Assembly: GCA_030429235.1 (NCBI GenBank)
Contig: JAUIDB010000009.1
Location: 62,001 to 126,000 of the forward strand
Length of the DNA: 64,000 nt
Reading direction: 5' to 3'
From: Thermoanaerobaculia bacterium
Lineage (GTDB): Bacteria; Acidobacteriota; Thermoanaerobaculia; Multivoradales; JAIOJS01
Shown: piece after piece, positions 6,847-48,340 of the stretch
How positions within the stretch are numbered: the first letter of the stretch is position 1
Layout: each line of letters opens with the position of its first letter
Made by a program: the position numbers and the translations under genes
The notes under the pieces: generated by a model
The model's input: the letters and a program-made list of their open reading frames with translations, nothing else
What the model was told of the DNA's origin: nothing
Database searches by the model: none

Positions 6847-8412
6847 ATGCCCACGATCTCGATTCTTCGCTGGTCGGCCCAGCGTGGTCAGCTTCTCGCC
6901 GCCACGATCTTGCTCGGTGGCGGAACTCTGTCGTCGTCACCAGTGGTGGCTCAACTCGTCGTCGACGACAACCACCGTATCTTCCAAAGCATCATTCAGA
7001 CCATCGAAGCCAACGACCGTTTTGGCGCCAGCTTGGCTAGCGGCGACTTCGATCGCGACGGTTACGACGACCTGGCCATAGGCGTTCCGGGAGAGGCCAT
7101 CGGAACCCTCGACGACGCGGGAGCCGTTGCGGTGGTCTTCGGTTCCTCGGCGGGCCTGGGTTTCGGGAGTCGGAGCCCGGTTTGGCTTCATCAGAGCGTG
7201 GCTGGGGTTCAGAATGTCGCCGAGGCCGGTGACGAGTTCGGTCTCGCGCTAACGGCGGGCGACTTTGATGGCGACGGTTTCGATGAGCTGGTGGTCGGGG
7301 TCCCGGGGGAAGGCTTCGAGATCAGCCCTGGGGTCTTCATTCTTGAAGCAGGAGCCTTTCACGTGTTTCTGGGTGGGCCAGGAGGGATCGTTCCCGCTGC
7401 CGATCAATTCTTCCACGGTGACTCGTTCGAGGGGGTCTGGAACGATGGTTTCGGTGATCGTCTCGGTTCCTCGTTGGCGGCCGGTGACCTTACTGGCAAT
7501 GGGATCTTCGATCTCTTCGTGGGTGTTCCTGCCGCTGACACGATTCCCTCCTTCGACGATGAGGGAGCGGTTCTTCACCTGCTGGGTAGCCCGGCTGGCC
7601 TCGATCCCGAGAACGCCGGTGCCTTCGTTCCTCCCACTCGAGAGGCCGGTGATCGATTCGGCTCCTCCGTCGCGATAGGCAATCTGGATGGTGGTCCGCT
7701 GCGAGATATCGCCTTCGGAGCTCCTTTCGCCGAGATCGACCCTGCCCCAACCGATTCCGGGCGCGTTTGGACGATCTTGAACGGTAGCAATCTCTGGCTC
7801 ACTGGTGGGGGTCAGAACGCGCGCTTCGGCACCGCGCTCGCCTCCGGTGACTTCTCCGGACTCGGCTACGAGCAGCTCCTGGTGGGAGCCCCGGGAAACG
7901 ACACCGAGGGAGTCGACGAGGCGGGAGTGGTTTTTGCCTTCGACTTCGTTTCCACGGGGGTCGTGGGGCTCTGGCAAGGTGAGTCCGGGATCCTCGAGAC
8001 CCCGGAGCCGTTCGATCAGTTCGGTCAGGCCCTCGCCACCGGCGATTTCGATCGCGACGGCTATGACGACGCCGTGTTCGGCATCCCCGGAGAGAACCTC
8101 GAACCGGGGATCGAGAACGGCGTAGTTCAAGTGGTCTACGGTAGTGCCGCCGGTCTGCACTCCGCCGGCAACCAGCTCTGGAGCCTGGACGCGCCGATCA
8201 ACTTCGGTTCACTGTCGGGAGACCGCTTCGGGGCGGCCGTGGCTTCTGGTGACTTCGACGGTGACGGCGTCGACGACCTAGCGATCGGTGCGCCGGACGC
8301 AACCTGGGCTGGCCAGGTCGAGACCGGATTCGTGCAGATCCTCTACGGACGCGATCATGGATGGCTCTTCGCGGACGGTTTCGAGAGTGGCGACACTCTG
8401 GCCTGGGAGTGA
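6847..8412 (+). CDS. Secreted FG-GAP/integrin-alpha-like repeat protein with FADGFESGD tag
   Basis: This 521-residue protein has a signal peptide (to about residue 38). It carries about seven FG-GAP repeats, recognisable by recurring FG.SLASGDFDRDGYDDLAIGVPGE-like units: RFGASLASGDFD, FGLALTAGDFDGDGFDEL, RFGSSVAIGNLDGG, QFGQALATGDFDRDGYDD and RFGAAVASGDFDGDGVDD. The repeats should fold as a calcium-binding beta-propeller. It ends with LFADGFESGDTLAWE, the tag shared with other exported proteins here. GGAGGAATC precedes the ATG. It lies 117 bases downstream of module 1 in the same direction, so it could be a target of that sigma factor. The ligand is unknown. Confidence 0.88.
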   Translation: MPTISILRWSAQRGQLLAATILLGGGTLSSSPVVAQLVVDDNHRIFQSIIQTIEANDRFGASLASGDFDRDGYDDLAIGVPGEAIGTLDDAGAVAVVFGSSAGLGFGSRSPVWLHQSVAGVQNVAEAGDEFGLALTAGDFDGDGFDELVVGVPGEGFEISPGVFILEAGAFHVFLGGPGGIVPAADQFFHGDSFEGVWNDGFGDRLGSSLAAGDLTGNGIFDLFVGVPAADTIPSFDDEGAVLHLLGSPAGLDPENAGAFVPPTREAGDRFGSSVAIGNLDGGPLRDIAFGAPFAEIDPAPTDSGRVWTILNGSNLWLTGGGQNARFGTALASGDFSGLGYEQLLVGAPGNDTEGVDEAGVVFAFDFVSTGVVGLWQGESGILETPEPFDQFGQALATGDFDRDGYDDAVFGIPGENLEPGIENGVVQVVYGSAAGLHSAGNQLWSLDAPINFGSLSGDRFGAAVASGDFDGDGVDDLAIGAPDATWAGQVETGFVQILYGRDHGWLFADGFESGDTLAWE

Positions 8413-8468
8413 GGGCGCAGCGGCGGACGCTCGCCGAAGGGACGATCTCGAACCGTTGGGATACGCCC

Positions 8469-8502
8469 GAGGCACCCCGGGCCGAGTGGCCCAGGGTGCC
8501 TC
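8469..8502. terminator. Convergent terminator hairpin
   Basis: A 15-base arm (GAGGCACCCCGGGCC) pairs with its near-complement after a four-base loop, with one mismatch. It lies between the convergent FG-GAP and cytochrome genes and could serve both. Confidence 0.55.
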
Positions 8503-8510
8503 AGGAGTGC

Positions 8511-9158: not shown

Positions 9159-9339
9159 GGTGGGGCCCCTCCTTTGAGGGCCGAGCGTGGTGCAGACGCG
9201 AGTGGCACCGTGCCGCCGGTCCCCACGCTGGCGAAGGATCAGAACAGAGTCCCGAACCACTGTCAACGGGGTAGATGTCGCGTCCAGTTCTCGGGTCGAA
9301 TCGACTCCTGTGGATCGGAGCGCCGGACGGGGTTTCCCG

Positions 9340-9457: not shown

Positions 9458-9460
9458 CCC

Positions 9461-11564: not shown

Positions 11565-12683
11565 CTATCCACTGTGTACTACTACGTTCGGCAGCGAGGA
11601 AGTTTCGAGCCTTGGTCCGCAGGCTCCAGCACTTCCCCTCCCCAACCCCGATGAGCTGCCGGTCACGGTCGGGACCCCGGGGGTTCGTGCACCGCTCGAC
11701 CAGCGTGTAGCGTCCCCGCTCTCGAAGCCGTCGGCAAACAGGAGAGAACCGATCGGAGCCGTGTTGGTGGCGTCGTCGAGTCGATGGACCCATTCCCCGT
11801 TGCCCGCGACTCCCGAGCGCAGCTCCCCCGGCGGTGAGCCGAGGCCACTGCTGTCGGTCACGACCGTGCCGCTCCCCTCTTCGAACCGATAGCTGCCGAC
11901 CAGCCCCGGAGTCGCGGGCGGAAGCACCCGCAGGCGAGTGCCCGCGATCTCGGCGGTGCTGCGGGCCACGTTCCAGATCCTCAGCTCGTCGACGAAACCC
12001 GCGAACGAGGGGTAGGAGGGTCCCGCGTCGTGCTTCTCGGCGGCTACGACCAGGTACCAGCCGTAGGGTGTGCGTTGTCCCGTGTCGCAGTTCCCGGTCA
12101 CGGGAATCCCGGCGTCGGGGTAGCTGAGGTCGGCGGTCGAGATCCCGGCGGAGCCGCGGAAGTCCTCCACGCCATCCACCACGATGGTCAAGTCGCCCAC
12201 TGCCGCGTCGCGCACCAGTGCGACGTGGTGCCACTCGCCGTCGAGCACGTCGACGTTGCCCTCGATCGTGTCGTTCGAAGGTCCGGCATCCCCCGAGTCG
12301 ACGCCGAAACGAACGAACCCGCCCGCCAGGCTGACACCGAACGCGTTCGCCGTGCCACACCACACATCGCGGTCGAGGACGATGTTGCCATCGATCCACG
12401 AGTAGTCGAAGAGCTCTACGTCCCCACCGGCGTTGGCAGTCGGGTTGTCGGCGACGAGACCTCGCAGCCAAAACTCCAGGGTGAAGCTCCCGGCCCCGAC
12501 GTCGATCGGCGAACTGTTGGCGCCGGGAACGTTGTCGTCGACGGGAATCAAGACGCGGTCTTGCTGCCCGGGCGGCCCAGCCCCGGTACCGTAGAAGCGC
12601 AGAGCTGACTCCGAAAGCGCCGAGCCGCCGAAGGCGGGCGTCGACAGCAAACCGAGTAGCAATGCGCTTCCTAGGGTGTTCAC
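11565..12683 (-). CDS. Exported LamG/concanavalin-like protein with FADGFESGD tag and an extra tail
   Basis: I start at GTG 12683 because it gives a clean signal peptide (NTLGSALLLGLLSTPAFG) and avoids overlap with the upstream gene; an ATG at 12827 is the longer option. The mature protein has a LamG-like jelly roll: GSFTLEFWLRG, then DGEWHHVALVRD, then FAGFVDELRIWNVARS, then LVGSYRFEEGSGTVVTDSSG. LamG domains often bind sugars. The tag LLFADGFESGDATRW follows. Here, unlike in its relatives, it is followed by about 40 low-complexity residues before the stop, suggesting loss of the original stop codon. Confidence 0.75.
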   Translation of the reverse strand: MNTLGSALLLGLLSTPAFGGSALSESALRFYGTGAGPPGQQDRVLIPVDDNVPGANSSPIDVGAGSFTLEFWLRGLVADNPTANAGGDVELFDYSWIDGNIVLDRDVWCGTANAFGVSLAGGFVRFGVDSGDAGPSNDTIEGNVDVLDGEWHHVALVRDAAVGDLTIVVDGVEDFRGSAGISTADLSYPDAGIPVTGNCDTGQRTPYGWYLVVAAEKHDAGPSYPSFAGFVDELRIWNVARSTAEIAGTRLRVLPPATPGLVGSYRFEEGSGTVVTDSSGLGSPPGELRSGVAGNGEWVHRLDDATNTAPIGSLLFADGFESGDATRWSSGARTPGVPTVTGSSSGLGRGSAGACGPRLETSSLPNVVVHSG

Positions 12684-14457: not shown

Positions 14458-16350
14458 ATGTTTTGCCACTGCCCTACACTGACAACCCGTCCTCTTCGAG
14501 CCCTGGTAGCGCTGCTGGGCGCGACTCTGGTCCTACTTCCCGGCGCGGCACGGGCGAGCCTGATCACCGTCGACACCAAGGTCGACGAGTTCTCGGCCGT
14601 GACCAGCGGAGACGCCGGCTGCTCCCTGCGGGAGGCGGTCCACGCGGCGAACACCAACACGCTCTACGGCAGCTGCGCGAGCGGGCAGCCAGGGGAGGAC
14701 ATCATTCTGCTGCCCTTCGAGATCGACGGCGACAACGGACCCTACGATCTGACCCTGACCGCGGAGGGTGACCTTCAGGTTACGGACGAGCTTCAGATCT
14801 GGGGTACCGGCGGCGCGCAGCCCCAGATTCACGCACAGGGCATCGACCGTATCTTCGATGTCGCCGCCTCCACGGAGAAGTTCACACTCTTGAGGCTTCT
14901 GCTGCGCGGCGGCGATGCCGGGTCGGAGGCCGGGGGAGCGATCACCACCCACGCCAGCGTAGCCCACACCTTCGAAGACGTCTGGTTCTGGGACAACCGG
15001 GCCACCACCGGAGGGGCGATCCACGTCGTGTCGTCGTTTGATCCCCCAGAGACCGTGTTCGACATGACCGACGTGACCTTTCAGGACAACGAGGCCAGCA
15101 TCGCGGGTGGCGCCCTCTATTTCGGTCAGTCTCCGACCACCGTGACCCTGGCGACGTGTACCGGCTGTTCGTTCGACGGGAACGTCGCTCCGGCGGGTGC
15201 TGCCATCTCCCTGCGTGGGGCTGCTCGGGTGCGTCTGGTGGAGAGCACGTTGACCGGCAACGAGTCGGGGAACGCAGGAGGCGGTCCGGCGGGAACGATC
15301 GACGGCAGCACCCTGAGCTGGACGACGCTCGAGCATTCCTGGCTCGGCTTCAACTCCAACGATGGGGAACGCGGTGCGGGCTACAACGGGGGCGGGGTCG
15401 TCATTCTCGACGACACGACCTTCAAGAACGGTATCTACCTGGTAGGGGGAACCCTCGAGGCCACGGACACTACCTTCGAGAACACCGAGAGGACAGCTCT
15501 CCATACTGTCAACCAGTCCGTCGTGACTCTTACGCGGGTGCGGGTGGTCGGCAGCCCCTGGTCCGGCGCCGAGACCACGGCGGCCGTCCGAGTCGACGGG
15601 CCCGTGGAGATCAGCGACAGCGTCTTCGAGGACAACGCGGGAGCCATCGACTGCCACAGCTGCCAGCTCGCTATCAGTTCCACTTCGTTCGTCGACAACG
15701 TCAACGAGGGCGATCAGGGCGGAGCGATTCACGCTAGCGGGGCCACGGTCGAGGTAGAACTCGAAAACTCCACCTTCTCGAGGAACTCGGCCAAGTTTGG
15801 CGGTGCGCTGTACTTGACCGGAGGAGCCCACTTCGAACTGCGCAACGTCACCATCGCCGACAACACTGCGGAGAAGGGAGGAGGGATCTTCGGCGTGAGT
15901 CTCAACGCTCTACCCCTCGTCTCCAACACGATCATCGCCGGCAACTCCGCCACGGTCACCGGATCCGACTGCGATTCGTCCCTACTCTCCGAAGGGTGGA
16001 ACCTGATCGGTATCGCCGACGACTGTACGGTGACCCCGACCGCGGGCGACCACTTCGGGACCGCGGTGTCGCCGATCGATGCCGGTCTGCAGCCGCTGGC
16101 CACGGTGGCTTCGAAGCCGGTTCACGGTTTGACAGTGGAAAGCCCGGCCCTCGATTCCGGCAACCCCAACCCTACGGGCACCACGGGATCCTCCTGCCGC
16201 CCAAGGGATCAGGTCGGTCAAGATCGCCCGGTGGATGCGGGCGGGGGACCGGTGTGTGACATCGGAGCGATCGAGGAAACCTCACCCGTTTCGATCCTCT
16301 TCGCCGATGGTTTCGAGTCGGGTGACCTGAGTGGTTGGGCGCTACCCTGA
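14458..16350 (+). CDS. Exported CSLREA-type parallel beta-helix protein with FADGFESGD tag
   Basis: ATG 14458, seven bases after AGGAGG, gives 630 residues. A signal peptide ends near GAARA. Just after it comes GDAGCSLREAVHAAN, the N-terminal CSLREA motif that marks large exported repeat proteins. Repeats of the type GGALYF, TFEDNAGAIDC, TFSRNSAKFGGALYL and NVTIADNTAEKGGGIF build a right-handed beta-helix, and SNTIIAGNSATVTGSDC closes it. The tail is ILFADGFESGDLSGWALP. Such proteins are usually surface or extracellular adhesins or polysaccharide-binding proteins; no catalytic motif is evident. Confidence 0.88.
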   Translation: MFCHCPTLTTRPLRALVALLGATLVLLPGAARASLITVDTKVDEFSAVTSGDAGCSLREAVHAANTNTLYGSCASGQPGEDIILLPFEIDGDNGPYDLTLTAEGDLQVTDELQIWGTGGAQPQIHAQGIDRIFDVAASTEKFTLLRLLLRGGDAGSEAGGAITTHASVAHTFEDVWFWDNRATTGGAIHVVSSFDPPETVFDMTDVTFQDNEASIAGGALYFGQSPTTVTLATCTGCSFDGNVAPAGAAISLRGAARVRLVESTLTGNESGNAGGGPAGTIDGSTLSWTTLEHSWLGFNSNDGERGAGYNGGGVVILDDTTFKNGIYLVGGTLEATDTTFENTERTALHTVNQSVVTLTRVRVVGSPWSGAETTAAVRVDGPVEISDSVFEDNAGAIDCHSCQLAISSTSFVDNVNEGDQGGAIHASGATVEVELENSTFSRNSAKFGGALYLTGGAHFELRNVTIADNTAEKGGGIFGVSLNALPLVSNTIIAGNSATVTGSDCDSSLLSEGWNLIGIADDCTVTPTAGDHFGTAVSPIDAGLQPLATVASKPVHGLTVESPALDSGNPNPTGTTGSSCRPRDQVGQDRPVDAGGGPVCDIGAIEETSPVSILFADGFESGDLSGWALP

Positions 16351-29127: not shown

Positions 29128-29219
29128 CCCGACCGGCGCCCCGGCCGTGGGTTTGCCATAATGCAGTCCACCCAGCCACCTACACGGGGGGTCGCGACTG
29201 GCCCCCCAAGGGAGACTCC

Positions 29220-30395
29220 ATGCGCCAGATTCTCGCTTCGCTGTCCCTGTTGCTCGCGACGGCTTCCGGAGCGGCCCTCGTCGAATGGGAGGCCGGCGTC
29301 GCCGCGTTCGAGGCTGGCGACTACCCGAAGGCAGTACAGGAGTTCCGGCAGGTGGTCGAGCAGAGTCCGGAAGCCCACTCGGGGCACTACATGCTCGGGC
29401 TGTCGCTGGGGAGACTCGGTCGGGCGCAGGAATCCCTCGAGCACCTGCGTCGGGCCTATGATCTCAATCCCAACGACCTGGGAGTCAGGGTTGCACTGGC
29501 TCGAGCCTACTTCGCAGAGCGCCGGTATCTCGACGTTACGAAACTCCTCGATGGCGTGAGCGAGGCAGAACTCGCGCCGAAGCTAGCGCAAGCCATCTAC
29601 CAGATGCGAGCCGTAGCCCGTGAGCGGACCGGCCACCCGGCGGGTGCCCTCGAGGACTACGATCGATTGACTCGCATGGCTCCAGACGACGGCGAGATTC
29701 TGCTCCGCTACGGCGTCCTCCTCGCCGGGGCAGCCAACCTGGAGGAGGCATTGCGCGTACTCGAGCGAGCCCAGCGAGTCGAACCCACCAACCCAGAGGT
29801 TCTGGGTACTTACGGTCAGCTGTTGAAGCGACGGGCCAGGCTCGAGCGCGACCGCCAGGTGAAACAGCAGACCTATCTCGACGCCACCGAGGTAGCTCAC
29901 CGTCTCGTAGCGGTGGAATCCACCTACGAGAGCCACCTCTTCGCCTGTGAGGTGCGACTCGGGGCCCGTCTCTATTCTGAGGCGATCGACAGCTGTCAGC
30001 TAGCGCTGGCCAAACGCTCCGACCAGTGGTTGCCCCTTTTCTACGTTGGCCTCGCCCTCTGCTCGGAGGACCGCTGTGCCGAAGCGCTCGAACCGCTCGA
30101 ACAGGCGGCGCAGTTTGCGTCGGACGAAGACCTCGACCGCGTCTGGCGGCAGATCGGCTTCGTCCACGAGAAGCGCAAGGACTACGAACTAGCGATCGAG
30201 GCCTACCAGAGGGCCGGCGACGAAGTGGGCGTGGCCCGAGTCACCGAGAGCGAGAAGATCTCCACTATGAGCGCTGAGATCGCGGTCGAGAACGAACTGA
30301 TCGAGCAGGAGTACCAGAGCCTCGAGCAGATGCGTCGCGAGGCGGAGGAACTCGAAGAGCAGTTGCGGGAGTTGGAGGAGGGGCCCAATCGGTGA
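29220..30395 (+). CDS. Exported TPR-repeat protein
   Basis: ATG 29220 gives 391 residues with a signal peptide (RQILASLSLLLATASGAALV). TPR units follow: GVAAFEAGDYPKAVQEFRQV, GHYMLGLSLGRLGRAQESL, GVRVALARAYFAERRYLDV and IEAYQRAGDEVGVARVTESE. The last 45 residues form a charged coiled coil (EQEYQSLEQMRREAEELEEQ). A CATAAT -10 box lies at 29157-29162, so it may have its own promoter. It is probably a periplasmic scaffold for envelope proteins. The link with the upstream glycan cluster is only positional. Confidence 0.82.
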   Translation: MRQILASLSLLLATASGAALVEWEAGVAAFEAGDYPKAVQEFRQVVEQSPEAHSGHYMLGLSLGRLGRAQESLEHLRRAYDLNPNDLGVRVALARAYFAERRYLDVTKLLDGVSEAELAPKLAQAIYQMRAVARERTGHPAGALEDYDRLTRMAPDDGEILLRYGVLLAGAANLEEALRVLERAQRVEPTNPEVLGTYGQLLKRRARLERDRQVKQQTYLDATEVAHRLVAVESTYESHLFACEVRLGARLYSEAIDSCQLALAKRSDQWLPLFYVGLALCSEDRCAEALEPLEQAAQFASDEDLDRVWRQIGFVHEKRKDYELAIEAYQRAGDEVGVARVTESEKISTMSAEIAVENELIEQEYQSLEQMRREAEELEEQLRELEEGPNR

Positions 30396-30722
30396 GCCCC
30401 CGCCGGTCCTGTGTGGCGAGGTGCTACCGGTTCCTCGGTTCCCCACGTCCGATGCGCCACAACTCGCCCACGGACCTGGATAGGAACTCCAACCCCGGTT
30501 CTCCGACGGCTTCGAATCGGGAACACCGCCTGGTCGTAGGAGAGCCTCGGATCAGGGCACTCGGTCGAGGAGCGGGACCGAGGTCTTTCCGGTCCTGCGA
30601 GAGAGCGCCGAGCCGCACCGCCGCTGTCGAGTTGTCGAGACGAGCACGTCTTGGAACTCGCTGCGGTCGTCGAGAGCCCGACTCCTCTCGGTACTGACGG
30701 GCTTCTGCTAGAGTCCCCATCC
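30396..30722. other. Apparently non-coding stretch with a tag remnant
   Basis: No intact gene is seen. The one recognisable element is the decayed FSDGFESG coding sequence at 30499-30539, listed separately. Confidence 0.5.
30499..30539 (+). pseudogene. Frameshifted 3' remnant of a FADGFESGD-tag gene
   Basis: TTC at 30499 begins F-S-D-G-F-E-S-G. Shifting by one base at the G-run near 30519-30521 then reads N-T-A-W-S and stop (TAG 30537-30539). This reconstructs the usual ending FSDGFESGxTAWS with one missing base. An in-frame TAG lies at 30481, just upstream, so no long gene remains attached. Confidence 0.6.
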
Positions 30723-33729: not shown

Positions 33730-36597
33730 CTAGGAGCCACCGACCTCGATCGCTCCATCGAGACTCTCGGCTCGCAGTCGCTCGGCTCGGACCCCCTCGG
33801 AAACGGCCAGAGTGGCCCTGGCTCTCTCAACAAGGCCCTGGGCTCGTTGCTCCTGGCCGTGGTCTCGCACAGCCTGAGCCAGGGCCAGTGCGACTCGGGC
33901 ACGCTGCCAGTGAGATGCCGGTAGAGCCGACGTGGCGATGGCATCGGCCTCTTCGAGCAAGGAAAGGGCCTCGTCGTGTCTTCCCTCAGACCTGAGGGCA
34001 GAGGCGAGTCCCTCGAGGACTCGAATCGAATCTGGATGGTTCCTGAGCTCGTTTTCGTCGCGCAGTGCGAGCACTTCCTCGAGGAGGGCTATCGCCTTCG
34101 AGTGGTGCCCCAGTGAGGTTTGGGCCTGGGCCATCGACGCCATCACGTGGAGTTCGCGCACGTGCCCAGCCGAGAGAAGCCGCCGCAGGATCTCCCGAGC
34201 CTCCTCGAGGCTGGAAAGGGCTTGTGCCGGCTTTCCCTGCAACCGCAGGACGGTACCTCTGGCCGCGCGGTGGGTTGCGTAGTCGACGCTCTCCGAACCC
34301 CGAGTTCGCAACAGAATCGCTTGTGCTTGGTTGAGCAGAGCCAGGGCTTCGTCGAATGCACCGAGCTCCCCGAGGGAGATCGCCAGATTGTCGAGCGAGT
34401 AGGCGACGTAGGGGTGCTCGTCGCCCAACTGGGCACGGTCGAGCGCCAGCACTTCCCGATACAGCGACACCGACTCTTCGAACCGACCGAGGGACCGCGA
34501 GATCAGCGCCACATTGCTCATCTTGGTGGTGATCGACGGATGCTCGCTTCCCAGGCTCTCCCGAGCGATCTCCAGCGCCTCCCGGTAGAGCGGCTCGGCG
34601 TCGGTGTATCGCCCCCGATCCCTCAGCAGCCGGGCCAGGTGGCCCATCGTTGTCGCGATCCCGGGATGGCGAGGTCCCAGGACCTCGCGCTCCAGCTCCA
34701 GGGCACGTCGAAGCTGCCGCTCGGCCGTGGTGTAGTCTCCCTGGTCGCGCGCGATCCCGCCGAGACTCACCAGCTGGGACGCGATCCCGGCGCGCTGATC
34801 ACCCGGCAGGCCCTCGAAGAGATCGAGGGCCTCACGAAAACGTAGCGCGGCACCCTCGAGGTCACCGACCAGGTAGCGGGAGACACCGTGGTCCCCCAGC
34901 GTCAACGCCAGGGCGCGCCGGGTCTCGGGGCTATCGTCCGCGGCGGCCTCGCGTCGCTGGATCTCGAGGGCACGGTCGAAGTGGATCGCGGCTTCTTCGT
35001 GCCGGTCCAGATCGACCAACACTCGGGCCAGGCCTCTGGAGTCGGCCGCCTCGGCAGCGGCGTCGGCTCCGCCGCGGTCGCGACGTAGCTCGAGGGCTCG
35101 GCGCCAGAGCCCCTCCGCCCGCTCGAGCTGACCCAGGGAGCGACTCACTCCGCCGAGCACCCCGAGGAGATCCGCCTCGACGCCGGCGTTCGTGAAGTCG
35201 GTCTCGTCGATGCGGGCGATTCCGTGATCGACCAACTGCTCCGCGGTCCACGGGGCACCGCCGGTCTCGAAAGGATCGACCGACTCGAGCAGTGAGGCGA
35301 GGAATCTCTGAACCTCCTCCGCCTTCTGCGCCTGGGCCGTGGCCCGGTCGCGCTCGCCGGCGGCGATCCTGGCTTGCCACGCGACGCCGGCGAGTCCGAT
35401 CAGAAGCGATCCTAGGAGGAGGGTCGAAGTGATCGCGGCCACCCGGTGGCGACGCACGAACTTCCCGAACCGGTAGAGGGCTCCCGGAGCACGTGCCACA
35501 ACCGGGTGTCCCGCCAGGTAGCGACGGAGGTCCTCGGCCAGCGCTTCGACCGATCGGTACCGACGCTCCGGTTCCTTGGCCAGGGCGGTGGCCAGAACCG
35601 CATCGAGGTCGCCGTGCAGTTGGCGAGCCCTCCGGCTCTGGTCTGGATCCTGCTCTGCCCTGGCCACCTCCGATCCGAGTGGAGCTGGCGTCTCGCACAC
35701 CAGCCTTCGAACCTCCTCGGCCGACTCCATCGGCCCGCGATAGGGTGACCGTCCCACGAGGAGCTCGTACAGTACGACGCCCAGGCCGTACACATCGGAG
35801 CCAGTGGTCACCGGACGGCCCAGGACCTGTTCGGGAGAGGCATAGCCTGGAGTCAGGATCTGTCGTCCTTCGCGTGTCTCGTCGTCGGCGATCGATTCGG
35901 GGTCGAGCAACTTGGCGATTCCGAAGTCTAGGAGCCTCGGTTCGCCGTCGGTCGTGACCAGAAGATTGGAGGGCTTGAGGTCGCGATGGACGACGAGGCT
36001 CCGGTGAGCCGAGGCGACGGCGTCACAGACGCGAAGGAAGAGCTCGATCCGTTCGTCGAGCGACAGCCGATGGCTCTCGGCGAAAATGGTGATCGGCTCT
36101 CCTTCGACCAGCTCCATGGCGAACCACGGTCGCCCGTCGGAAGAGATACCCCCGTCGAGAAGCTGCGCGATCCTCGGGTGGTTGAGGGTGGCGAGGATCT
36201 GGCGCTCCCGCTGAAAACGGCGCTCGATCGCCTCCGAGTCCATTCCGCGCTTGATCAGCTTGAGCGCGACGCGCTGTTCGAACCCGCCTTCGACGCGCCG
36301 CGCGAGGAAGACCGTTCCCATACCGCCTTGGCCCAGTTTGGACACCAGCTGGTAGGGGCCGATCTTCGTCTCGAGCTCGGGCTCTCGATCGCCGGTAAGA
36401 AGCGTAGCCGCGGCCTCGACATCCAGGTCCAGTCGTAGGTCTTCGGCCTCGTAGACGGCGAGCAGAGACTCCACCTCGGCCACGATCTCCGCGTCACGGC
36501 ACTCGTGTCGCAGGTATTCTCTACGTCGGTCCTGAGGCAGGTCGACGCAGGCCGCGAAGAGCGACGAGACGAGATCGGAGTTGCGGGGGTTAGAGAT
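33730..36597 (-). CDS. Ser/Thr protein kinase with TM and TPR sensor domain (module 3)
   Basis: From the first standard start (GTG 36483) the protein has 917 residues. Homology to the other three kinases continues 38 codons further, through LFAACVDLPQDRRREYLRHE, with no ATG, GTG or TTG. The best start is ATC at 36597, which overlaps the sigma stop by eight bases, as in module 2, and has GGAG seven bases upstream. The kinase has GQGGMGTVFLARR, VALKLIK, VHRDLKPSN, DFGIAKLLDP and ASPEQVLGRPV. A membrane span (ITSTLLLGSLLIGLAGVAW) and about nine TPRs follow. Catalytic residues are intact. Confidence 0.88.
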   Translation of the reverse strand: MSNPRNSDLVSSLFAACVDLPQDRRREYLRHECRDAEIVAEVESLLAVYEAEDLRLDLDVEAAATLLTGDREPELETKIGPYQLVSKLGQGGMGTVFLARRVEGGFEQRVALKLIKRGMDSEAIERRFQRERQILATLNHPRIAQLLDGGISSDGRPWFAMELVEGEPITIFAESHRLSLDERIELFLRVCDAVASAHRSLVVHRDLKPSNLLVTTDGEPRLLDFGIAKLLDPESIADDETREGRQILTPGYASPEQVLGRPVTTGSDVYGLGVVLYELLVGRSPYRGPMESAEEVRRLVCETPAPLGSEVARAEQDPDQSRRARQLHGDLDAVLATALAKEPERRYRSVEALAEDLRRYLAGHPVVARAPGALYRFGKFVRRHRVAAITSTLLLGSLLIGLAGVAWQARIAAGERDRATAQAQKAEEVQRFLASLLESVDPFETGGAPWTAEQLVDHGIARIDETDFTNAGVEADLLGVLGGVSRSLGQLERAEGLWRRALELRRDRGGADAAAEAADSRGLARVLVDLDRHEEAAIHFDRALEIQRREAAADDSPETRRALALTLGDHGVSRYLVGDLEGAALRFREALDLFEGLPGDQRAGIASQLVSLGGIARDQGDYTTAERQLRRALELEREVLGPRHPGIATTMGHLARLLRDRGRYTDAEPLYREALEIARESLGSEHPSITTKMSNVALISRSLGRFEESVSLYREVLALDRAQLGDEHPYVAYSLDNLAISLGELGAFDEALALLNQAQAILLRTRGSESVDYATHRAARGTVLRLQGKPAQALSSLEEAREILRRLLSAGHVRELHVMASMAQAQTSLGHHSKAIALLEEVLALRDENELRNHPDSIRVLEGLASALRSEGRHDEALSLLEEADAIATSALPASHWQRARVALALAQAVRDHGQEQRAQGLVERARATLAVSEGVRAERLRAESLDGAIEVGGS

Positions 36598-37328: not shown

Positions 37329-38900
37329 ATGAATCGACGACTCATTCTGGCGGCTTCGGTACTGGTAGCCGTGGGCCTCCACTCGAGCGCCGACGCGGAG
37401 ACGCTCACCGTCTGCGCCGCGGGGTGCGATTGGACGACCATCCAGGGCGCGGTCAACGCCGCGGCCGCCGGCGACACGGTGCTCATCGCGGACTCGTACC
37501 ACACCGAGGCCGACATTCTCGTGTTCACCTCCGTCACCATCGAGGGAGTCCCGGGCATCACCACCCTCCAGGCCTCCGAGCAGCCCGGTCAGGGAGCGGG
37601 CAGAATGCTGGTGATCCCTGCGGGCACGACGGTCGAGATTCGTGACCTGACGATCCGCCACGGCGATACGGAGGACGCAGGCGGGGCCATCCACAACCTC
37701 GGGATGCTGACCCTCGACCGGGTGACTCTGCGGCGGAACTACGCGGCCCAGCGGGGGGGTGCGATTCACAACACGGGAACACTGACCATCGTGGACTCGG
37801 TTCTGTCCCACAACGAGTCGAACGCCAACGGAGGAGCCATCGCAAATACCGGAACCGGTCAGCTGCGCGTCTCCAGGAGCCTCTTCTACGGGAACTCGGC
37901 GAGCCTGAATGGTGGCCACATCCTGAACCTCGCGGGGGCCGAGGTGGACCGGACCGCCTTCGTGAACGGAGATGCCGTGCTCGGAGGAGGAGCCATCGCG
38001 AACGCCGGAGGTCTGATCGTCTCGGGGTACTTCGGCTCCAACGCAGCGCAGTCGTCGGGCGGAGCGATCAGGAACACTGGTGCGCTCGTCGTTGTCGAAG
38101 CCCAGTTCAGTTACAACACCGCCGACGACTCGGGGGAGGCGCTCTCCGTTTTGGCTGGGGACACCTGGGTGGAGGGTGCGACCTTCTACGGCAACGAAGC
38201 TTCTCGCGGCGGCGGCATCGATGTCCAAAACGGCCAGGCGGCTACCCTCGTCAACTCGACCCTGGCGGAGAACCTCGCCACCACGTCGGGAGGGGGGGCC
38301 TACCTCGGACCGAGCTCGCGGCTCTACCTGGCCTCGACTACGCTCGTCGGCAACGTCGCGGACCTCTGGGAGACCGGCGACGGCGACGGGGGCGGCATCT
38401 ACCTCGAGCCCTGCGTCGGTCTCTGCTCCACGACCAGGGCCCACCTCCAGAACTCGATCGTGGCGAACAACGAGGACCGGAGCCCTCCCGGGTACCCCGA
38501 CTCCGACGACTGCGACGGTGAGCTGACCTCGCATGGATTCAATCTGATCGAAGGGGCGACCACGCTCGGGCCCTGCCGCGTCGCCGGCGATCTCACCGGC
38601 GTGCAAGTGGGGATCGATCCGGACCTGGGGGAGATCGACGACCACGGTGGTCCCGAAGTCGATCCCTCCGGCACCGTCCCGGGTACCCTGCCGCCCAACC
38701 CCGGGAGCCCCGTGGTCGACGCCGGCGATCCGAGCGGCTGCACCGATTTCGATGGTGGTCTCTTGCCACGGGACCAACGGGGTGCCCTCCGGGTGGGCGT
38801 CTGCGACGTCGGGTCCTTCGAGCTCGGGGGCCTCTTCGACTCTCCGATCTTCGCTGATGGCTTCGAGAGCGGCGACACCACGGCGTGGAGCCTTCCTTAG
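37329..38900 (+). CDS. Exported parallel beta-helix protein with FADGFESGD tag
   Basis: ATG 37329 follows AGGAGAG; 523 residues. The signal peptide is NRRLILAASVLVAVGLHSSADA. The mature part starts TLTVCAAGCDWTTIQGAV, then repeats of the form GGAIHNLGMLTLDRVTLRRN, GGAIHNTGTLTIVDSVLSHN, GGAIANTGTGQLRVSRSLFY and GGIDVQNGQ. These are coils of a right-handed beta-helix with a choice-of-anchor style end (HLQNSIVANNED). The tail is PIFADGFESGDTTAWSLP. It is expected on the surface or released; the function is probably adhesion or glycan binding. Confidence 0.88.
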   Translation: MNRRLILAASVLVAVGLHSSADAETLTVCAAGCDWTTIQGAVNAAAAGDTVLIADSYHTEADILVFTSVTIEGVPGITTLQASEQPGQGAGRMLVIPAGTTVEIRDLTIRHGDTEDAGGAIHNLGMLTLDRVTLRRNYAAQRGGAIHNTGTLTIVDSVLSHNESNANGGAIANTGTGQLRVSRSLFYGNSASLNGGHILNLAGAEVDRTAFVNGDAVLGGGAIANAGGLIVSGYFGSNAAQSSGGAIRNTGALVVVEAQFSYNTADDSGEALSVLAGDTWVEGATFYGNEASRGGGIDVQNGQAATLVNSTLAENLATTSGGGAYLGPSSRLYLASTTLVGNVADLWETGDGDGGGIYLEPCVGLCSTTRAHLQNSIVANNEDRSPPGYPDSDDCDGELTSHGFNLIEGATTLGPCRVAGDLTGVQVGIDPDLGEIDDHGGPEVDPSGTVPGTLPPNPGSPVVDAGDPSGCTDFDGGLLPRDQRGALRVGVCDVGSFELGGLFDSPIFADGFESGDTTAWSLP

Positions 38901-38952: not shown

Positions 38953-40131
38953 ATGAACCTCCGATCTGAGCTGCGCCTCTCAGCGCTCGTCCTGGCCGCG
39001 ATGTCCATATTCCATTTCTCTCCCCTCTACGGCGCGGAGTTCGTCGTCGTCTCGGGGAGCAACGAGGGGGACTCGAACCCTGGAGACGGCCTGTGCCGGA
39101 CGCCCGGACAGTTCGGCGCCTGCAGCCTGCGAGCGGCGGTCGAGGAATCCAACGCGCTGCCGGGCACCGACACCATCGTGCTCGGCCCTGGATCGCACGA
39201 GGTACTGTCGCCCGAGCGCGTCCTCAGCGACCACGTGAACATCGAGGGCGTCAACGCGGCGGCCACGACCCTTCATTCGAACGGCGGGAACTACCGGCTC
39301 TTCAGGGTCGAAACCGGGGTCGTGGTGTCGATTCGCGACCTCACCCTGATGGGCTTCGGCGTGTCGGCCACCCCGGACAGCTACGGGGCCGCCATCGACA
39401 GCGAGGGCTCTCTGCTCGTCACCGGGGTGTGGTTCCGAGAGAACCATGCTTCCCAGGGGTGCGGTGCGGTGCGTAGCCGCGGACTGCTGGAGGTGCGGGC
39501 CTCGACGTTCAGCGGCAATGGCGCGGGCTTCGATCACGGGGCCGGTGCGCTCTGTGTGGTCGAGGGCGGTACCGCCGCCGTGTACAACTCGACCTTCTTG
39601 GGGAACCGCTCGTACCGAGGTGGTGCGATCGAGGTGTTCGGTAGCAGCTCGGTCCTCATCCTCTGGAGCTCGACCTTCGTCGACAACGTCAGCGTCGTTC
39701 CCATCGGCAGCCCGACCTCCAGCGTGCTCTTCCTGAACGGAGGAACGGTCGATCTGCAGCGGAATCTCATCGTCGGCGATTGTGTCTACGATGGTGGCAC
39801 CGTGACCTCCGACGGCGGGAATCTCGAGAGCCCCGGGCAGACCTGCCTCATCGGTGCTCCCGGTGACCAACCGAGCGTCCCGGCGCACACCCTGGATCTG
39901 GGATCCCTGGCGTATTGGGGAGGGACGGTCCCCACCGTTCTCCTGGGGCCTGACAGCCCCGCCGTCGACGCTCCGACCAGCCCAGCCGTCTGTCCGATCG
40001 ACGATGCCAGGGGTTTCCCGCGAGACGCGTCCTGTGACAGTGGTGCCTTCGAGCGGCAGCCGGGAGACGCGGTGCCGATCTTCTCCGACGGCTTCGAGAC
40101 CGGAGACACCAGTGGGTGGGGGTTACTCTAG
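38953..40131 (+). CDS. Exported CSLREA-type beta-helix protein with FSDGFETGD tag
   Basis: ATG 38953, with GAGGAGA eight bases upstream, gives 392 residues. The signal peptide is LRLSALVLAAMSIFHFSPLYG. The CSLREA-type N-terminal motif appears as FGACSLRAAVEESNALPG. Beta-helix coils follow (SYGAAIDSEGSLLVTGVWF, HGAGALCVVEGGTAAVYNS, YRGGAIEVFGSSSVLIL). It ends PIFSDGFETGDTSGWGLL. It lies 52 bases after the preceding beta-helix gene and is probably in the same operon, as a shorter paralogue. Confidence 0.87.
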   Translation: MNLRSELRLSALVLAAMSIFHFSPLYGAEFVVVSGSNEGDSNPGDGLCRTPGQFGACSLRAAVEESNALPGTDTIVLGPGSHEVLSPERVLSDHVNIEGVNAAATTLHSNGGNYRLFRVETGVVVSIRDLTLMGFGVSATPDSYGAAIDSEGSLLVTGVWFRENHASQGCGAVRSRGLLEVRASTFSGNGAGFDHGAGALCVVEGGTAAVYNSTFLGNRSYRGGAIEVFGSSSVLILWSSTFVDNVSVVPIGSPTSSVLFLNGGTVDLQRNLIVGDCVYDGGTVTSDGGNLESPGQTCLIGAPGDQPSVPAHTLDLGSLAYWGGTVPTVLLGPDSPAVDAPTSPAVCPIDDARGFPRDASCDSGAFERQPGDAVPIFSDGFETGDTSGWGLL

Positions 40132-43074: not shown

Positions 43075-45921
43075 TCAGAACTTGGTCTTGGGTCGCGCTG
43101 GAGGAGTTTGTGGTGACCGCGGGTGGCCGGAGCCGGTGGCAGTGCCTTCCGCCTGGTGGTCGAGCCAGCGCCGGAAGATGTGTCCGGGCGGCAAGTGTGG
43201 CTCGAGCGCGGCCCAGGTCGACACGGACGCGTGCCGAGCGGCGTCGGCCCCCTTGGGGTCGCCGTTCCGCTCGGCCAGCGCCGCCTCGGTAAGGTGGCGC
43301 ACATACCGCGCCATCAAGGTGGTGCTGTGGTCGGGGCCGTACAGCCGCTCGAGGCGCAACCCCGCCCCTTCCAGCCGTTCCTTCGCGGCGTCGAGCTCAC
43401 CCTGGACGTAGAGGAGTCGGCCGGTGAGGCTCTCGAGCTCGGCTACATCGGCGCCCTCGGGTTCCAGGCGCCGGTGGATCGAAAGGGCTCGACTCCAGGC
43501 ACGACCGGTGGCGTCGAGATCACCCTGCAGCTCGTAGGCCAGGCCCTGCATGCTCAGCGCGTTGGCGGCATAGCGGTTGTTCTCGTTGCCGAGCGCCTCC
43601 ACGGCGATCGTGTAGCTTTCCTCGCAGTGTGCGATGGCGGCGTCGACCCGGTCGACGAAGAGCTGGGTGAAGCAGAGGCTGCTGCCGAGGATCGAGGCGG
43701 CGAGGTGACGCTCTCCGTAGGCCGCCTGGTAGGCCGCCAGTGAGCCCTCAAGGGCCTCGATCGCTTCCTCGTAGCGTCCTACCCGCCGAAGCGAGAGGGC
43801 GAGACTGTTGAGGATCTGCCCGTAGAGGTAATGGTCGGGGCCGTAGATCTCCTTCTGGATGCGGGCGGCCTGTTCGAGAAGCGGTGCCGCTTCGGCGTGT
43901 CGGTCGAGGCGGGAGAGCTGATCGCCGAGGCGGGACATCGCCTGGGTGGTCAGGGGGTTGCGTTCGCCGTAGGTCTTCCTGGAGAGGTCGAGGGCCCGCC
44001 GGAGGAGCTGGAGAGCCTCGAGATGGTTCCCGCGTTTGGCGAGGAAAGCGCCCGCATCGTTGAGGGTCGAGATGCGGGTGGGCAGGAGCTCGGTTGCCAG
44101 CGCGTCGTCCGGAATCTCCAGAGCCTGGTCGAAGTAGTGCCGCGCCTGGTCGTGCTCGGCGAGTTGCTCGCTGGCCACGCCGAGGGCGTTGAGGCTGTAC
44201 AACCGTTGGCCCTCGTTCGGTCCCGCACGTTGCTGGATCGCCATCGCCTCGAGGAACGCATCGCGGGCCTCCTCGCTGCGGGTTGCGGCCAGGAGCGCAT
44301 CCCCGAGGTGGTTGAGGGCGAGGGCCAGCCCGTCCTCCGCCTCCAGGCGCTCCGCGGCGGTGATGTCACTCGCAAGCACACCGCGATAGCTCGCCACCGA
44401 GCGCTCGAGGAGCTCGATGGCCCGCTCGGGATTGGCGAGGCTCTGGAAGACCGAGCCGATGGTATCGAGCATCCGGGCCTGTAGAAGAGCGGAAGTGTCG
44501 AGCTCATCGACGCGAGAGAGGCCGGCCTCGAGCAGCTCGCGAGCCGTGCTCTCTTCGCCGAGGTGGACGCCGGGGTCGCTGGCGTCGAACAGGGTGAGGA
44601 GGAACTCGGTCACCGATTCGGCCCGCTCTGCGTGTCGCTGGGCCCGGTTCCGCTCGTCGACGGTCTGGCGCTGTTGGAGGGCGAGGCCGAGGATCAGCGA
44701 GCCGATGACCAAGCTGCTGACGAACGAAGCGGTCGAGGCGATCGGGTTGCGTCGCAGCAGCTTACCGAGGCGGTAGGTCAGGGTCGCGGGGCGGGCCGCG
44801 ATCGGCTGTCCGGCGAGGAACCGCCGCAGATCGGCGGCGAGTTCGGCCACCGATTCGTACCGCCGCTCGGGTTCCTTGGCGATCGCCTTGGCGACGATGG
44901 TATCGAGGTCCCCCTTCAGGGCGCGCGGCGTCCATGGCGGTCGCTCGTTCGCTGGCCGTGCCTCGATGACGCGCGACGGGCGCGGTGGCTCGCTCTCGCA
45001 GACCTCCCGCTCGAGTTCGCCGAACTTGAACTCGCGCGAGTCGAAAGGACGTCTCCCGGTGAGTAGCTCGTAGAGCAGGACACCGAGGCCCCAGATGTCG
45101 GTCGCGGTCGTCACGGCGTTGCCCCGGTACTGTTCCGGGGCGGCGTAGTCCGGGGTTAGAAGTCGCTGCCCGGCCCCGGTGTGCAGGCCGATCGCGGCTG
45201 TGAGCTCGGTCTCGCTCGGACTCGGGGCGAGCAGCTTGGCGATGCCGAAGTCGAGGAGCTTCGGCTGCCCGTCGGTGGTCACCAGTAGGTTCGATGGCTT
45301 CAGGTCCCGGTGCACGATCAAGCGTCGGTGGGCGTACTGAAGCGATCCGCACACTTCGACGAAGAGGCCCAGTACCTCGTCCAGGGGAAGCTGGCGCTGG
45401 CGACAGTGTTCGGTGATCGGGAGGCCGTCGATCAGCTCGAGGGCGAGATACGCGCGCCCCGAGTCGATGCCGCTGTCGAGCACCCGGGCGATGCCCGGAT
45501 GATCGAGACCGGCGAGGAACTGCCCCTCGGCGCGGAAACGACGGTGTCGCTGCGTCGGCGTCTCGGGGCCGAGCGCTTCGACCCGCAGGACCTTGAGCGC
45601 GACCCGCTGGTGGAGTGAGTCGCCCTCGCGCTCGGCGAGAAAGACGGACGCCATGCCGCCCTCACCGAGGATCTCGATCAGGCGATAGGGGCCGATCTGC
45701 TCGTCGATGCCGGGCGAGGGAGTGTGGAGCACCATCGAGAGCGGCTCGCTCTCGGCCCTCTCCTGGTCGGTCGCGACCTCGAGTAGGCGAGCGACCTGTT
45801 GGCGGAGATCGGGATCGTCGATCGTGTCCAGCACTCGTTGGCGTTCGGGCGGGCGGAGGTCGAGTGCTCGTTCGAGCCAGGGCTCCGCCTCCGTCCAACG
45901 ATGGAGCGGATCGAAGGTCAA
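43075..45921 (-). CDS. Ser/Thr protein kinase with TM and TPR sensor domain (module 4)
   Basis: The 948-residue protein starts at TTG 45921, overlapping the sigma stop by four bases (TTGA). The kinase has GEGGMASVFLAER near 86, VALKVLR (Lys110), VHRDLKPSNLLV, DFGIAKLLAP and AAPEQYRGNAV. A membrane span (VSSLVIGSLILGLALQ) and about eight TPRs follow (RLYSLNALGVASEQLAEHDQ, YLYGQILNSLALSLRRVGRY). The end is proline- and lysine-rich (RSPQTPPARPKTKF). The catalytic set is complete. It forms an operon with its sigma factor and is divergent from the beta-helix gene at 46640. Confidence 0.92.
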   Translation of the reverse strand: MTFDPLHRWTEAEPWLERALDLRPPERQRVLDTIDDPDLRQQVARLLEVATDQERAESEPLSMVLHTPSPGIDEQIGPYRLIEILGEGGMASVFLAEREGDSLHQRVALKVLRVEALGPETPTQRHRRFRAEGQFLAGLDHPGIARVLDSGIDSGRAYLALELIDGLPITEHCRQRQLPLDEVLGLFVEVCGSLQYAHRRLIVHRDLKPSNLLVTTDGQPKLLDFGIAKLLAPSPSETELTAAIGLHTGAGQRLLTPDYAAPEQYRGNAVTTATDIWGLGVLLYELLTGRRPFDSREFKFGELEREVCESEPPRPSRVIEARPANERPPWTPRALKGDLDTIVAKAIAKEPERRYESVAELAADLRRFLAGQPIAARPATLTYRLGKLLRRNPIASTASFVSSLVIGSLILGLALQQRQTVDERNRAQRHAERAESVTEFLLTLFDASDPGVHLGEESTARELLEAGLSRVDELDTSALLQARMLDTIGSVFQSLANPERAIELLERSVASYRGVLASDITAAERLEAEDGLALALNHLGDALLAATRSEEARDAFLEAMAIQQRAGPNEGQRLYSLNALGVASEQLAEHDQARHYFDQALEIPDDALATELLPTRISTLNDAGAFLAKRGNHLEALQLLRRALDLSRKTYGERNPLTTQAMSRLGDQLSRLDRHAEAAPLLEQAARIQKEIYGPDHYLYGQILNSLALSLRRVGRYEEAIEALEGSLAAYQAAYGERHLAASILGSSLCFTQLFVDRVDAAIAHCEESYTIAVEALGNENNRYAANALSMQGLAYELQGDLDATGRAWSRALSIHRRLEPEGADVAELESLTGRLLYVQGELDAAKERLEGAGLRLERLYGPDHSTTLMARYVRHLTEAALAERNGDPKGADAARHASVSTWAALEPHLPPGHIFRRWLDHQAEGTATGSGHPRSPQTPPARPKTKF

Positions 45922-46484: not shown

Positions 46485-46639
46485 GCTCGCTCCGCGGTGT
46501 TCATCGCCGCGATGCTACCGCGACGCCTGCCCGGCGGTGACCCTCGAGCCGGCTCTTTTTCGGATACGAGGCTAGAGGGAGCGCCGTGCCGAGAGTCCGG
46601 CGTCCGACGCAAGCAACGACCAACGAGGGAGCTCCGCTC

Positions 46640-48340
46640 ATGAGACCGAGCCCGACAGCCAAGACGACGGTGGTGATTCTGACCTGGGTAGCCGTTTCGA
46701 TCACGTCGCCCCTGGGAGCGGAGACCATCACCGTCGGCGCGGATGCACTCTGCGACTACGATTCTCTCCAGGCCGGTTTGTTGCACACCCTGCTCGCCAG
46801 TGGCACCGATACCATTCGCCTGGCCAACAACCAGCTGTACACCGGCCCGTTCCTGGTGCAGAACCAGTCGGTGATCATCGAAGGGGGCTACACCAGCTGT
46901 TCCGATACCACCGCTCTGGGCACTACCGAGGTGCGTCGTCCTTTCGACGATCGGGCGTTCCTGATCAACAGTAGCGGCGGCTTCCCCGAGCTGGTGACGC
47001 TGCGTAATCTCGATATCAATTTCACCGGCAGCGCTCAGGTGGTCCTCGCCTATGGCGGACTGATCCTGGTCGAGGATGGGTTCAGCCTGGCGCTCGAACG
47101 GACCACAGTGCGGAACGGCCGTGCTACCAACGGGGGGGGCATCGCTCTGTACGATGACTCGCTTCTACGGCTGCGGGAAGGCTCGTCGATCGTCGTCAAT
47201 CGCGCCACCTCCGGGGGCGGCATCTACTGTGCCGGAGATAGCGTGATTTACATGACCGGCGGCTTGATCACCTCCAACGAAGCGACCGATGGCGGTGGCC
47301 TCTACGCCTCCGACTGCAGCGTGAGCGTTTCGGCCGGCGGATTCCTGCAGGGAGTGTTGGGCAATCAGGCCACCGAGGATGGCGGAGGCGTCTACGTCGA
47401 TGGCGGGGGTTCGGTAGCGTTCGGAAGTGAGATCGCTCCCGTGCAACTTAGCGGCAACGGTGCTCGGCGAGGGGGTGGTGCCTTCGTCGTCGACTCCGGC
47501 TCGATCGTTCAGGCATGGAATGCCGATGTGACCGGCAACGTGGCCAGTGAGGAGGGGGGAGCGGTCTGGGTCGGCAACCTCGCGCGCTTCTACATGGTCC
47601 GTGTCTTCGACCGCTGCTCCGAACCCTGCTCACGGCTCGAGGGGAACGACGCCGGGGGGGTCGGGGGCGGACCGAGCGGCCGGGGTGGCGCCGTCTTCGT
47701 GGAGGCGGGAGCTCGACTCGACGTTCGCCAGACGCTGATTCGCGACAACCGGGCTGGTAGGGGCGCGGTGGCGTTCCTCGACGGCGGAGCGGCCGCATTG
47801 CTCGAGAACGACGTCGTGGTCCACAATTTCGGCCACGAGATGGTGGCGGTCGGCGATGCCGAACTGTCGGTGGCGTTCGTCACGTCGGCCGACAATGGCC
47901 AGCTGCCCGGACAATCGGGTTCGCACGCCTTCTACACCAACTCGCATTCGGGGGCGACGACCGGGGTCTATTCCAGCATCCTCTGGGATCCGTTGGCCTG
48001 GGGAGGAGGCACGGCCGGAGCCACCCACACCCTCGACTGCGTGACCCTTTTCGACGACGGCTTCTTGCCCCCGGGCTCGCACCGTAGTCTCAGCACTCTC
48101 GATCCCCTCTTCGTCGATGCCCCCGGTGGGGACTACCACTTGACGCCGACCTCGCCGGCGGTCGATTCCTGTGATGACAGCGTCTACACACCCATCGACC
48201 CCGACATCGACAACGAGCTGCGCGGCTACGATGCACCAGGCGGTACTCCGGGTCGGTTCTTCGATCGCGGTGCCGACGAGATGGTCCCTCCGCTGTTTGC
48301 CGACGGATTCGAATCTGGGGACACCTCGGCCTGGGACTGA
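46640..48340 (+). CDS. Exported parallel beta-helix protein with FADGFESGD tag
   Basis: The 566-residue protein from ATG 46640 has a signal peptide (AKTTVVILTWVAVSITSPLGA). It continues TITVGADALCDYDSLQAGLL, then beta-helix coils (GGGIALYDDSLLRLREGSSI, GGGIYCAGDSVIYMTGGLI, GGGLYASDCSVSVSAGG, GGAVWVGNLARFYMV). The tail is PPLFADGFESGDTSAWD and then the stop, without the one to three extra residues seen in several relatives. It is divergent from module 4. The last codons lie inside a strong hairpin. Confidence 0.87.
   Translation: MRPSPTAKTTVVILTWVAVSITSPLGAETITVGADALCDYDSLQAGLLHTLLASGTDTIRLANNQLYTGPFLVQNQSVIIEGGYTSCSDTTALGTTEVRRPFDDRAFLINSSGGFPELVTLRNLDINFTGSAQVVLAYGGLILVEDGFSLALERTTVRNGRATNGGGIALYDDSLLRLREGSSIVVNRATSGGGIYCAGDSVIYMTGGLITSNEATDGGGLYASDCSVSVSAGGFLQGVLGNQATEDGGGVYVDGGGSVAFGSEIAPVQLSGNGARRGGGAFVVDSGSIVQAWNADVTGNVASEEGGAVWVGNLARFYMVRVFDRCSEPCSRLEGNDAGGVGGGPSGRGGAVFVEAGARLDVRQTLIRDNRAGRGAVAFLDGGAAALLENDVVVHNFGHEMVAVGDAELSVAFVTSADNGQLPGQSGSHAFYTNSHSGATTGVYSSILWDPLAWGGGTAGATHTLDCVTLFDDGFLPPGSHRSLSTLDPLFVDAPGGDYHLTPTSPAVDSCDDSVYTPIDPDIDNELRGYDAPGGTPGRFFDRGADEMVPPLFADGFESGDTSAWD

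Follow-up and report, generated by a model that had tools for sequence, protein, structure and literature searches.

A C-terminal tag on exported Thermoanaerobaculia proteins, domain D and a candidate secreted partner that lacks the first strand of D

What is the job of a short C-terminal motif that recurs on exported proteins of unrelated fold? The question is raised by a window of 64,000 nucleotides from a Thermoanaerobaculia bacterium (the whole stretch of DNA analysed, C23:62001-126000 of a 4.85 Mb genome in 92 contigs, G000), in which six proteins carry a tag of the type FxDGFE[ST]G followed by a Trp. All six motifs, pointed out in a preliminary description, were found at their coordinates by direct reading of the sequence. 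The six proteins have signal-peptide-like N-termini and, as had been said, the tag lies near the end in five of them, a stop codon following the Trp after 1-3 residues; the exception is a LamG protein. The answer proposed here is that the tag, resembling strand 1 of a larger domain (D), completes in trans a secreted form of D that has lost this strand (D-deltaN), and so docks many exported proteins on one secreted partner. This is considered probable from the tag itself and the homology that links it to strand 1 of D, from orthologues in which tag and D replace each other, from the truncation of D-deltaN at the matching point, from the co-occurrence and adjacency of tag and D-deltaN, and from the fusions of the latter to other domains. 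Genomes, contigs, loci and genera are designated below by G, C, L and g numbers.

The tag and the first strand of domain D

The pattern FxDGFE[ST]G occurs at 89 sites of the genome, against 0 for a reversed-pattern control, and the tag is therefore not a product of chance. A stop codon lies at most 26 residues away at 83 of the 89 sites, the protein ends exactly at the Trp at 39, and Leu, Ile or Val precedes the first Phe at 85. With gene starts and signal peptides called heuristically, a signal peptide is assigned to 80 of the 89 tagged proteins and to 93 of 242 control open reading frames (ORFs) of the same regions. The 79 tagged proteins scanned match 71 Pfam families, including beta-helices, GSDH, subtilases, reprolysins, M28, GH44, endonuclease I and LVIVD. 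Also tagged are families that carry known sorting signals elsewhere (choice-of-anchor Q, n=11; choice-of-anchor B, n=2; CSLREA, n=4; ExeM/NucH), as well as relatives of M36 peptidases that depend on myxosortase or on the type IX secretion system (T9SS). What had been said of the window, that the tag is a cassette at the C-terminus of signal-peptide proteins whose folds are unrelated, thus holds for the genome. The DNA of all 89 27-mers is different, with free synonymous variation, whereas F, D, G, F, E, G and W are almost constant in the protein. The constancy of F, D, G, F and E is imposed by the pattern used for searching; that of Ser/Thr, Asp and Trp is not. Near-constant residues on DNA that differs at every site indicate selection on the protein. 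Two other origins considered for the tag, chance and a repeat at the DNA level, are rejected, since the reversed pattern gave no site and the 27-mers are so diverse.

In a few cases the motif is internal and opens a domain of ~200-265 residues, D, for which no Pfam family exists. The clearest example is choice-of-anchor B. Orthologues sharing 51-55% identity terminate in the tag in part of the genomes; in others a D of ~197 residues, opening with the same motif, stands at this position: the protein terminates with '...RPDLENLVLPQLFADGFESGDTTAW' and a stop codon in the window's genome and reads '...RPRMSAALFSDGFESGRLDAWSKIKG...' plus ~180 residues in genus g13. Strand 1 of full D domains has the same invariants (F, D, F, E, G, W) as the tag. 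Judged by sequence, tag and strand 1 are homologous. Its conservation on varied folds had been ascribed to a shared job rather than to descent; the conservation stands, and the words 'rather than descent' find no support, because the tag is itself strand 1 of D.

Strand 1 is retained in a standalone secreted D of the few-tag genome G018 (L118), the full D that was modelled with AlphaFold2. A 42-row alignment gave a mean predicted local distance difference test (pLDDT) score of 94.9 and a predicted template modelling score of 0.91, much better than the pLDDT of 55 reached with 5 sequences. Residues 1-10 average a pLDDT of 96, with a strand at 2-6, and the last strand spans 193-202. Foldseek relates the model to concanavalin A-like (ConA-like) jelly rolls, namely TtX122 domains, alginate lyases, lectin domains and CBM22. 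The TtX122 domains of Teredinibacter turnerae (8q28, 8q2a) are among the closest folds (E 1.5e-8, TM ~0.6); CBM22 and ConA-like folds of PL7/PL18 type are also near, with a profile match to CBM22 4xup at E 0.011. Sequence identity to TtX122 and the other closest folds is low (15-16%) and, to our knowledge, neither TtX122 nor the CBM22 and PL7/PL18-type folds are known as split domains or docking partners. In ConA-like folds the N- and C-terminal strands usually pair. Asp197, one of two invariants of the D family, is located in the last strand of the model; a contact with the Asp/Glu of the tag, perhaps through a metal, is therefore proposed, as a guess.

Since the tag is homologous to strand 1, it might also be an inert relic of repeatedly truncated D domains, or a functionless cassette that was copied. 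This is hard to reconcile with 89 copies of near-invariant residues on DNA that is everywhere different, spread over 71 Pfam families, and with the maintenance of the C-terminal ...SAWSxTVP in other genomes, where the commonest form is FADGFESGDTSAWSxTVP-COOH and the tail measures exactly 18 residues in 79 of 95 C-terminal cases. Such constancy on diverse DNA, together with a preserved C-terminus, requires continuing selection, and a relic is regarded as extremely improbable.

A secreted D without strand 1

A D profile search of the order returned many small proteins that match only from about position 20. In these D-deltaN proteins a signal-peptide-like segment is followed by a mature chain beginning at strand 2 of D or a few residues before it, e.g. 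...CSASAFA/QNSLDVNADAAIVGNFGLEV, where the slash marks the start of the mature chain. Standalone D without the strand-1 motif is found at loci from about 35 genomes. When D-deltaN bears SLH, the profile match starts later, and the preceding segment is still a signal peptide devoid of the strand-1 motif; strand 1 stands upstream of only one match, in G005, and this match is an internal D in a larger protein. Exactly one D-deltaN is present in the window's genome (C62:68160-68804, 215 residues, MKKTATIIGALSALLIGSAAMAQ/NTVAVDQ...). In the full D of L118, about 10 residues lead from the Trp to the conserved Val of strand 2. By manual count, the tag ...SAWSxTVP supplies 5 residues and the N-terminus of D-deltaN 4-5, so that the spacing of full D would be restored. 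Comparison of D-deltaN with Pfam, NCBIfam and PDB sequences gave nothing significant. SLH is fused to D-deltaN in G009, G068 and G069 (Pfam) and, by reading, in G008; in G201 the fused domain is a dockerin.

Tag and D tend to occur together. Among 72 genomes of the order, the strict pattern is present in 46, with a maximum of 130 per genome, and D in 40 of these 46; the apparent exceptions G001 and G070, tagless by the strict pattern, contain variant tags. All 21 genomes of genus g23 have neither tag nor D, and D is also absent from G016 and G071. Tagged genes are, moreover, neighbours of D-deltaN; in genomes with few tags (G068, G069, G070, G008, G009) these neighbours are peptidases. Two tagged reprolysins directly precede it in G070 and G068, and one does so in G069; a tagged subtilase adjoins it in G008 and G009, and a tagged gene lies directly beside it in G019 and G023. 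In the window's genome, the genes after D-deltaN on its strand are two tagged PD40-GEVED genes, of which the first is frameshifted. Members of the sulfatase family (PF00884) often flank D-deltaN as well (L306, L308, L309, L313, L317, L318, L338, L339), and the neighbours in L360 look similar. Beyond the order, only 4 of about 282 sampled genomes have D-deltaN. One of these, G201, carries its single tag and its single D-deltaN on one contig. In G260 (contig C2), the upstream gene overlapping D-deltaN (L361 6659-7570, minus strand) encodes a signal peptide and, immediately after it, ETPIFGDDFELGNTDAWDEVVP, i.e. strand 1; the strand-1 motif of this gene, IFGDDFELGNTDAWDEVVP, is thus at the N-terminus of a partner protein.

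Collectively, these data suggest a click-in docking system for cell-surface or extracellular proteins, so far undescribed. The tagged protein would be exported by means of its signal peptide and present strand 1 of D at its C-terminus. The tag would then complete D-deltaN in trans by donor-strand complementation, non-covalently; for example, a tag peptide such as LFADGFESGDTTAW would pair with the mature product of C62:68160-68804. Dozens of unrelated exported proteins could in this way dock on one small secreted partner, and D-deltaN might retain its cargo on the cell surface or matrix by virtue of its lectin-like fold or, in those relatives where SLH or dockerin is fused to it, by means of these domains. 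The physical binding, its compartment and the retention at the surface are what we infer. That the whole amounts to a natural, genome-wide tag-and-catcher system, with strand-1 tags collected at the surface or matrix by one strand-less secreted protein, is given a chance slightly better than even.

Several observations weigh against this proposal. Six tag-positive genomes have no D match (G010 and G030 are 93% and 91% complete, the others <82%). The Fisher test for co-occurrence gives p 2e-10 overall, and only 0.057 when a single g23 genome is kept; tag and D are phylogenetically non-independent and one clade dominates the test, so that more weight is placed on the neighbourhoods. G254 has D-deltaN with no tag found, and G079 and G235 have the tag with no D match. 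The D-deltaN of the window's genome is without an obvious anchor of its own, and a partner that docks 1:1 would need to be abundant. The tags of G079 and G235, both outside the order, are at the ends of related proteins of ~300 residues (loci L364 and L365, respectively, with no D match there), possibly as a result of transfer.

Parts of the proposed docking are known from other systems. In chaperone-usher pili, donor-strand complementation means that another polypeptide supplies the strand that a beta-sandwich lacks. Likewise, D-deltaN begins after strand 1 and the donor is homologous to the missing strand. However, D is a ConA-like jelly roll devoid of its N-terminal strand and not an Ig fold, and the strand would be donated by the C-terminal tags of dozens of unrelated proteins. 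Beside D-deltaN no usher-like gene was seen, no genome-wide search for one having been made. SpyTag/SpyCatcher, an engineered split CnaB2 domain, consists of a peptide tag and a truncated partner that together make one domain, as would the tag and D-deltaN; the latter pair is natural, apparently non-covalent, genome-wide and built on an N-terminal instead of a C-terminal strand. In cohesin-dockerin scaffolds, many secreted enzymes share a C-terminal docking module that is received by one partner, which is also the arrangement proposed for the tag. Unlike the EF-hand module of dockerin, the tag comprises only 13-18 residues, and in G201 the dockerin sits on the D-deltaN partner.

The tag could also be read by D-family lectin domains of other proteins, which would build an extracellular matrix in which D-deltaN is one of several partners. 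Giant proteins with D in tandem (~1,300-2,400 residues) are indeed encoded in several tag-rich genomes (G005, G006, G036, G037, G039, G040). Several of the D copies read start, however, with a strand-1 motif of their own, and no such protein was found in the window's genome, with its single D match, which leaves matrix building by tandem D a very unlikely explanation.

Sorting tails and secretion machines

The tag has no Pfam or NCBIfam model. When the six window proteins were compared with NCBIfam at E up to 10, no model covered it, and none of the 25 most frequent NCBIfam families in the 79 tagged proteins is a sorting-tail model. An 18-residue segment with a hydropathy of at least 1.6 exists in 1 of 83 tails of the genome and in 3 of 95 in other genomes; between tag and end, Lys or Arg is missing in 68 of the 83 and occurs once in 15. 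The tag is accordingly unlike PEP-CTERM, IPTL-CTERM and LPXTG tails, as had been recognized from the start. Known sorting signals of other lineages occupy its position in choice-of-anchor Q and B proteins, and relatives with few or no tags have other features in its stead. For example, choice-of-anchor Q in G069, from a few-tag lineage, has the IPTL-CTERM-like tail VPTLGDAGKVLLAGLMGAAGLLLLRRKK (L197). In G025, G026 and G016, choice-of-anchor Q and other proteins end instead in a small extra C-terminal domain (L195, L200, L209, L210, L215). The pattern of this small domain, C..I..G.....AG..I....GF, resembles the '3-coathanger' type, and the domain is also inserted within D in L120 and L124.

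T9SS C-terminal domains, of about 70-100 residues, resemble the tag in their terminal position, in the absence of a membrane helix and in their presence on exported proteins of varied fold; with its 13-18 residues the tag is far shorter. A search for SprA in the 72 genomes gave no match, the control query giving none either. The likeness to PEP-CTERM, GlyGly-CTERM, MYXO-CTERM, IPTL-CTERM and LPXTG goes further, since these are also short C-terminal cassettes on many unrelated signal-peptide proteins, placed after choice-of-anchor domains and served many-to-one by one partner gene. The partners are exosortase for PEP-CTERM, rhombosortase for GlyGly-CTERM, myxosortase for MYXO-CTERM and sortase for LPXTG. 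In some low-copy genomes the MYXO-CTERM partner adjoins its target (PMC11980579), as D-deltaN adjoins tagged genes. The differences reside in the tag, which has no transmembrane helix, basic tail, invariant Cys or LPXTG-like motif, and in the partner, a membrane protease in these classes and a secreted jelly-roll protein as candidate here. The tag might nevertheless be a conventional C-terminal sorting signal, read by a sortase-like protease or a translocon that has yet to be discovered, and resemble strand 1 of D only because it arose from truncated D domains. The many-to-one distribution, the C-terminal position and the choice-of-anchor context are those of classic sorting signals (PMC3237569). 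The missing hydrophobic span and basic tail do not fit, and such a signal would leave unexplained why D-deltaN has lost precisely strand 1 and why it adjoins the few tagged genes of low-copy genomes; a sorting signal of this kind is thus considered unlikely.

A different role for the same pair would be that D-deltaN binds the tag as a periplasmic chaperone or secretion adaptor, delivering the cargo, e.g., to a system related to the type II secretion system (T2SS). All 15 loci sampled have a T2SS-like operon (GspE/F, secretin, pseudopilins), and almost every genome has a secretin that matches it. In other organisms many of the tagged families (ExeM/NucH, LapA-like aminopeptidase) are substrates of T2SS type, and D-deltaN is small and in most genomes anchorless. 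On the other hand, its fusions to SLH and dockerin point to retention, and the T2SS-like locus also exists, without a tag-specific gene, in tagless g23. A chaperone or adaptor is rated an unlikely alternative. The T2SS was itself examined as a machine that would discriminate tagged from tagless genomes and was rejected: a GspD search at first appeared to tell the two apart, but the stronger match belongs to the pilMNOPQ (type IV pilus) operon, and the true T2SS-like operon is found in both classes of genome. The presence of the tag therefore does not follow that of the T2SS. The g23 genomes (G043-G063) lack the PilQ-type secretin of the pilMNOPQ operon (cf. L223, G000:C40), which is present in nearly all other genomes of the order; without this secretin, the tag and D, the genus seems to have lost much of the extracellular programme.

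The preliminary description had envisaged a secretion or anchoring machine as reader of the tag. The candidate reader put forward here is D-deltaN in place of a transporter or protease, and the sorting itself is a function that we infer. The tag remains a C-terminal feature beyond the window's genome, with 95 of 107 sites sampled in other genomes at most 26 residues from the stop codon. Mostly internal sites, which the preliminary description had named as refuting its reading, were thus not what was seen. In 297 genomes of the phylum, many tags are found only in members of the order, and three outsiders have one each. A codon-specific scan of 84,980 named species retrieved almost only metagenome-assembled genomes (MAGs) of Acidobacteriota, many labelled Thermoanaerobaculia, the exceptions being one Oscillochloris, one Myxococcales-labelled MAG and a few other bacterial MAGs. 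Literature searches for DGFESG or FADGFESGD yielded no paper, and nothing relevant was found on secretion in Thermoanaerobaculia.

Tagged proteins of the window and wider meaning

The six tagged proteins of the window were delineated as ORFs with matches in Pfam or NCBIfam, and their tags were read directly. The first, on the plus strand at 6847-8412, is an exported FG-GAP propeller protein of 521 residues (ORF with signal-peptide-like start, Pfam FG-GAP E 2.9e-46) that ends in FADGFESGDTLAWE-COOH (8368-8409). The LamG (ConA-like) protein, of 372 residues, is encoded on the minus strand (11565-12683; ORF, Pfam and signal-peptide-like start) and contains the tag FADGFESGDATRW (11700-11738), followed by 44 more residues before the stop. 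These 44 residues are of low complexity, and the tail possibly reflects a lost stop codon. The remaining four are on the plus strand. An exported CSLREA/beta-helix/choice-of-anchor Q protein of 630 residues (14458-16350; ORF, NCBIfam, Pfam) has the tag FADGFESGDLSGWALP-COOH (16300-16347). Two exported beta-helix/choice-of-anchor Q proteins follow, one of 523 residues (37329-38900; ORF, NCBIfam) ending in FADGFESGDTTAWSLP-COOH (38850-38897) and one of 392 residues (38953-40131; choice_anch_Q E 9.8e-14) ending in FSDGFETGDTSGWGLL-COOH (40081-40128). The last is an exported beta-helix protein with POMP repeats, of 566 residues (46640-48340; ORF, NCBIfam), with FADGFESGDTSAWD-COOH at its end (48296-48337).

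A seventh site, at 30499-30540 on the plus strand, is a frameshifted remnant with FSDGFESG in one frame and GNTAWS and a stop in the next, preceded by no intact ORF. It is situated behind a TPR protein (29031-30395), and this orphan suggests a decayed tagged gene. The window also encodes two large Ser/Thr protein kinase-TPR proteins on the minus strand (33730-36483 and 43075-45921).

Whatever the mechanism, a robust C-terminal signal that had escaped annotation now has a named candidate partner. If the proposed docking is true, secreted proteins would be docked by a split beta-sandwich that needs no sortase, lipid or membrane anchor, and similar pairs could provide new natural peptide-tag/catcher systems for protein engineering. 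Up to about 130 proteins per genome would rely on such docking in a group of soil and sediment Acidobacteriota that is widespread but for the most part uncultured, and hundreds of exported hydrolases, peptidases and beta-helix proteins of the group would gain a function.

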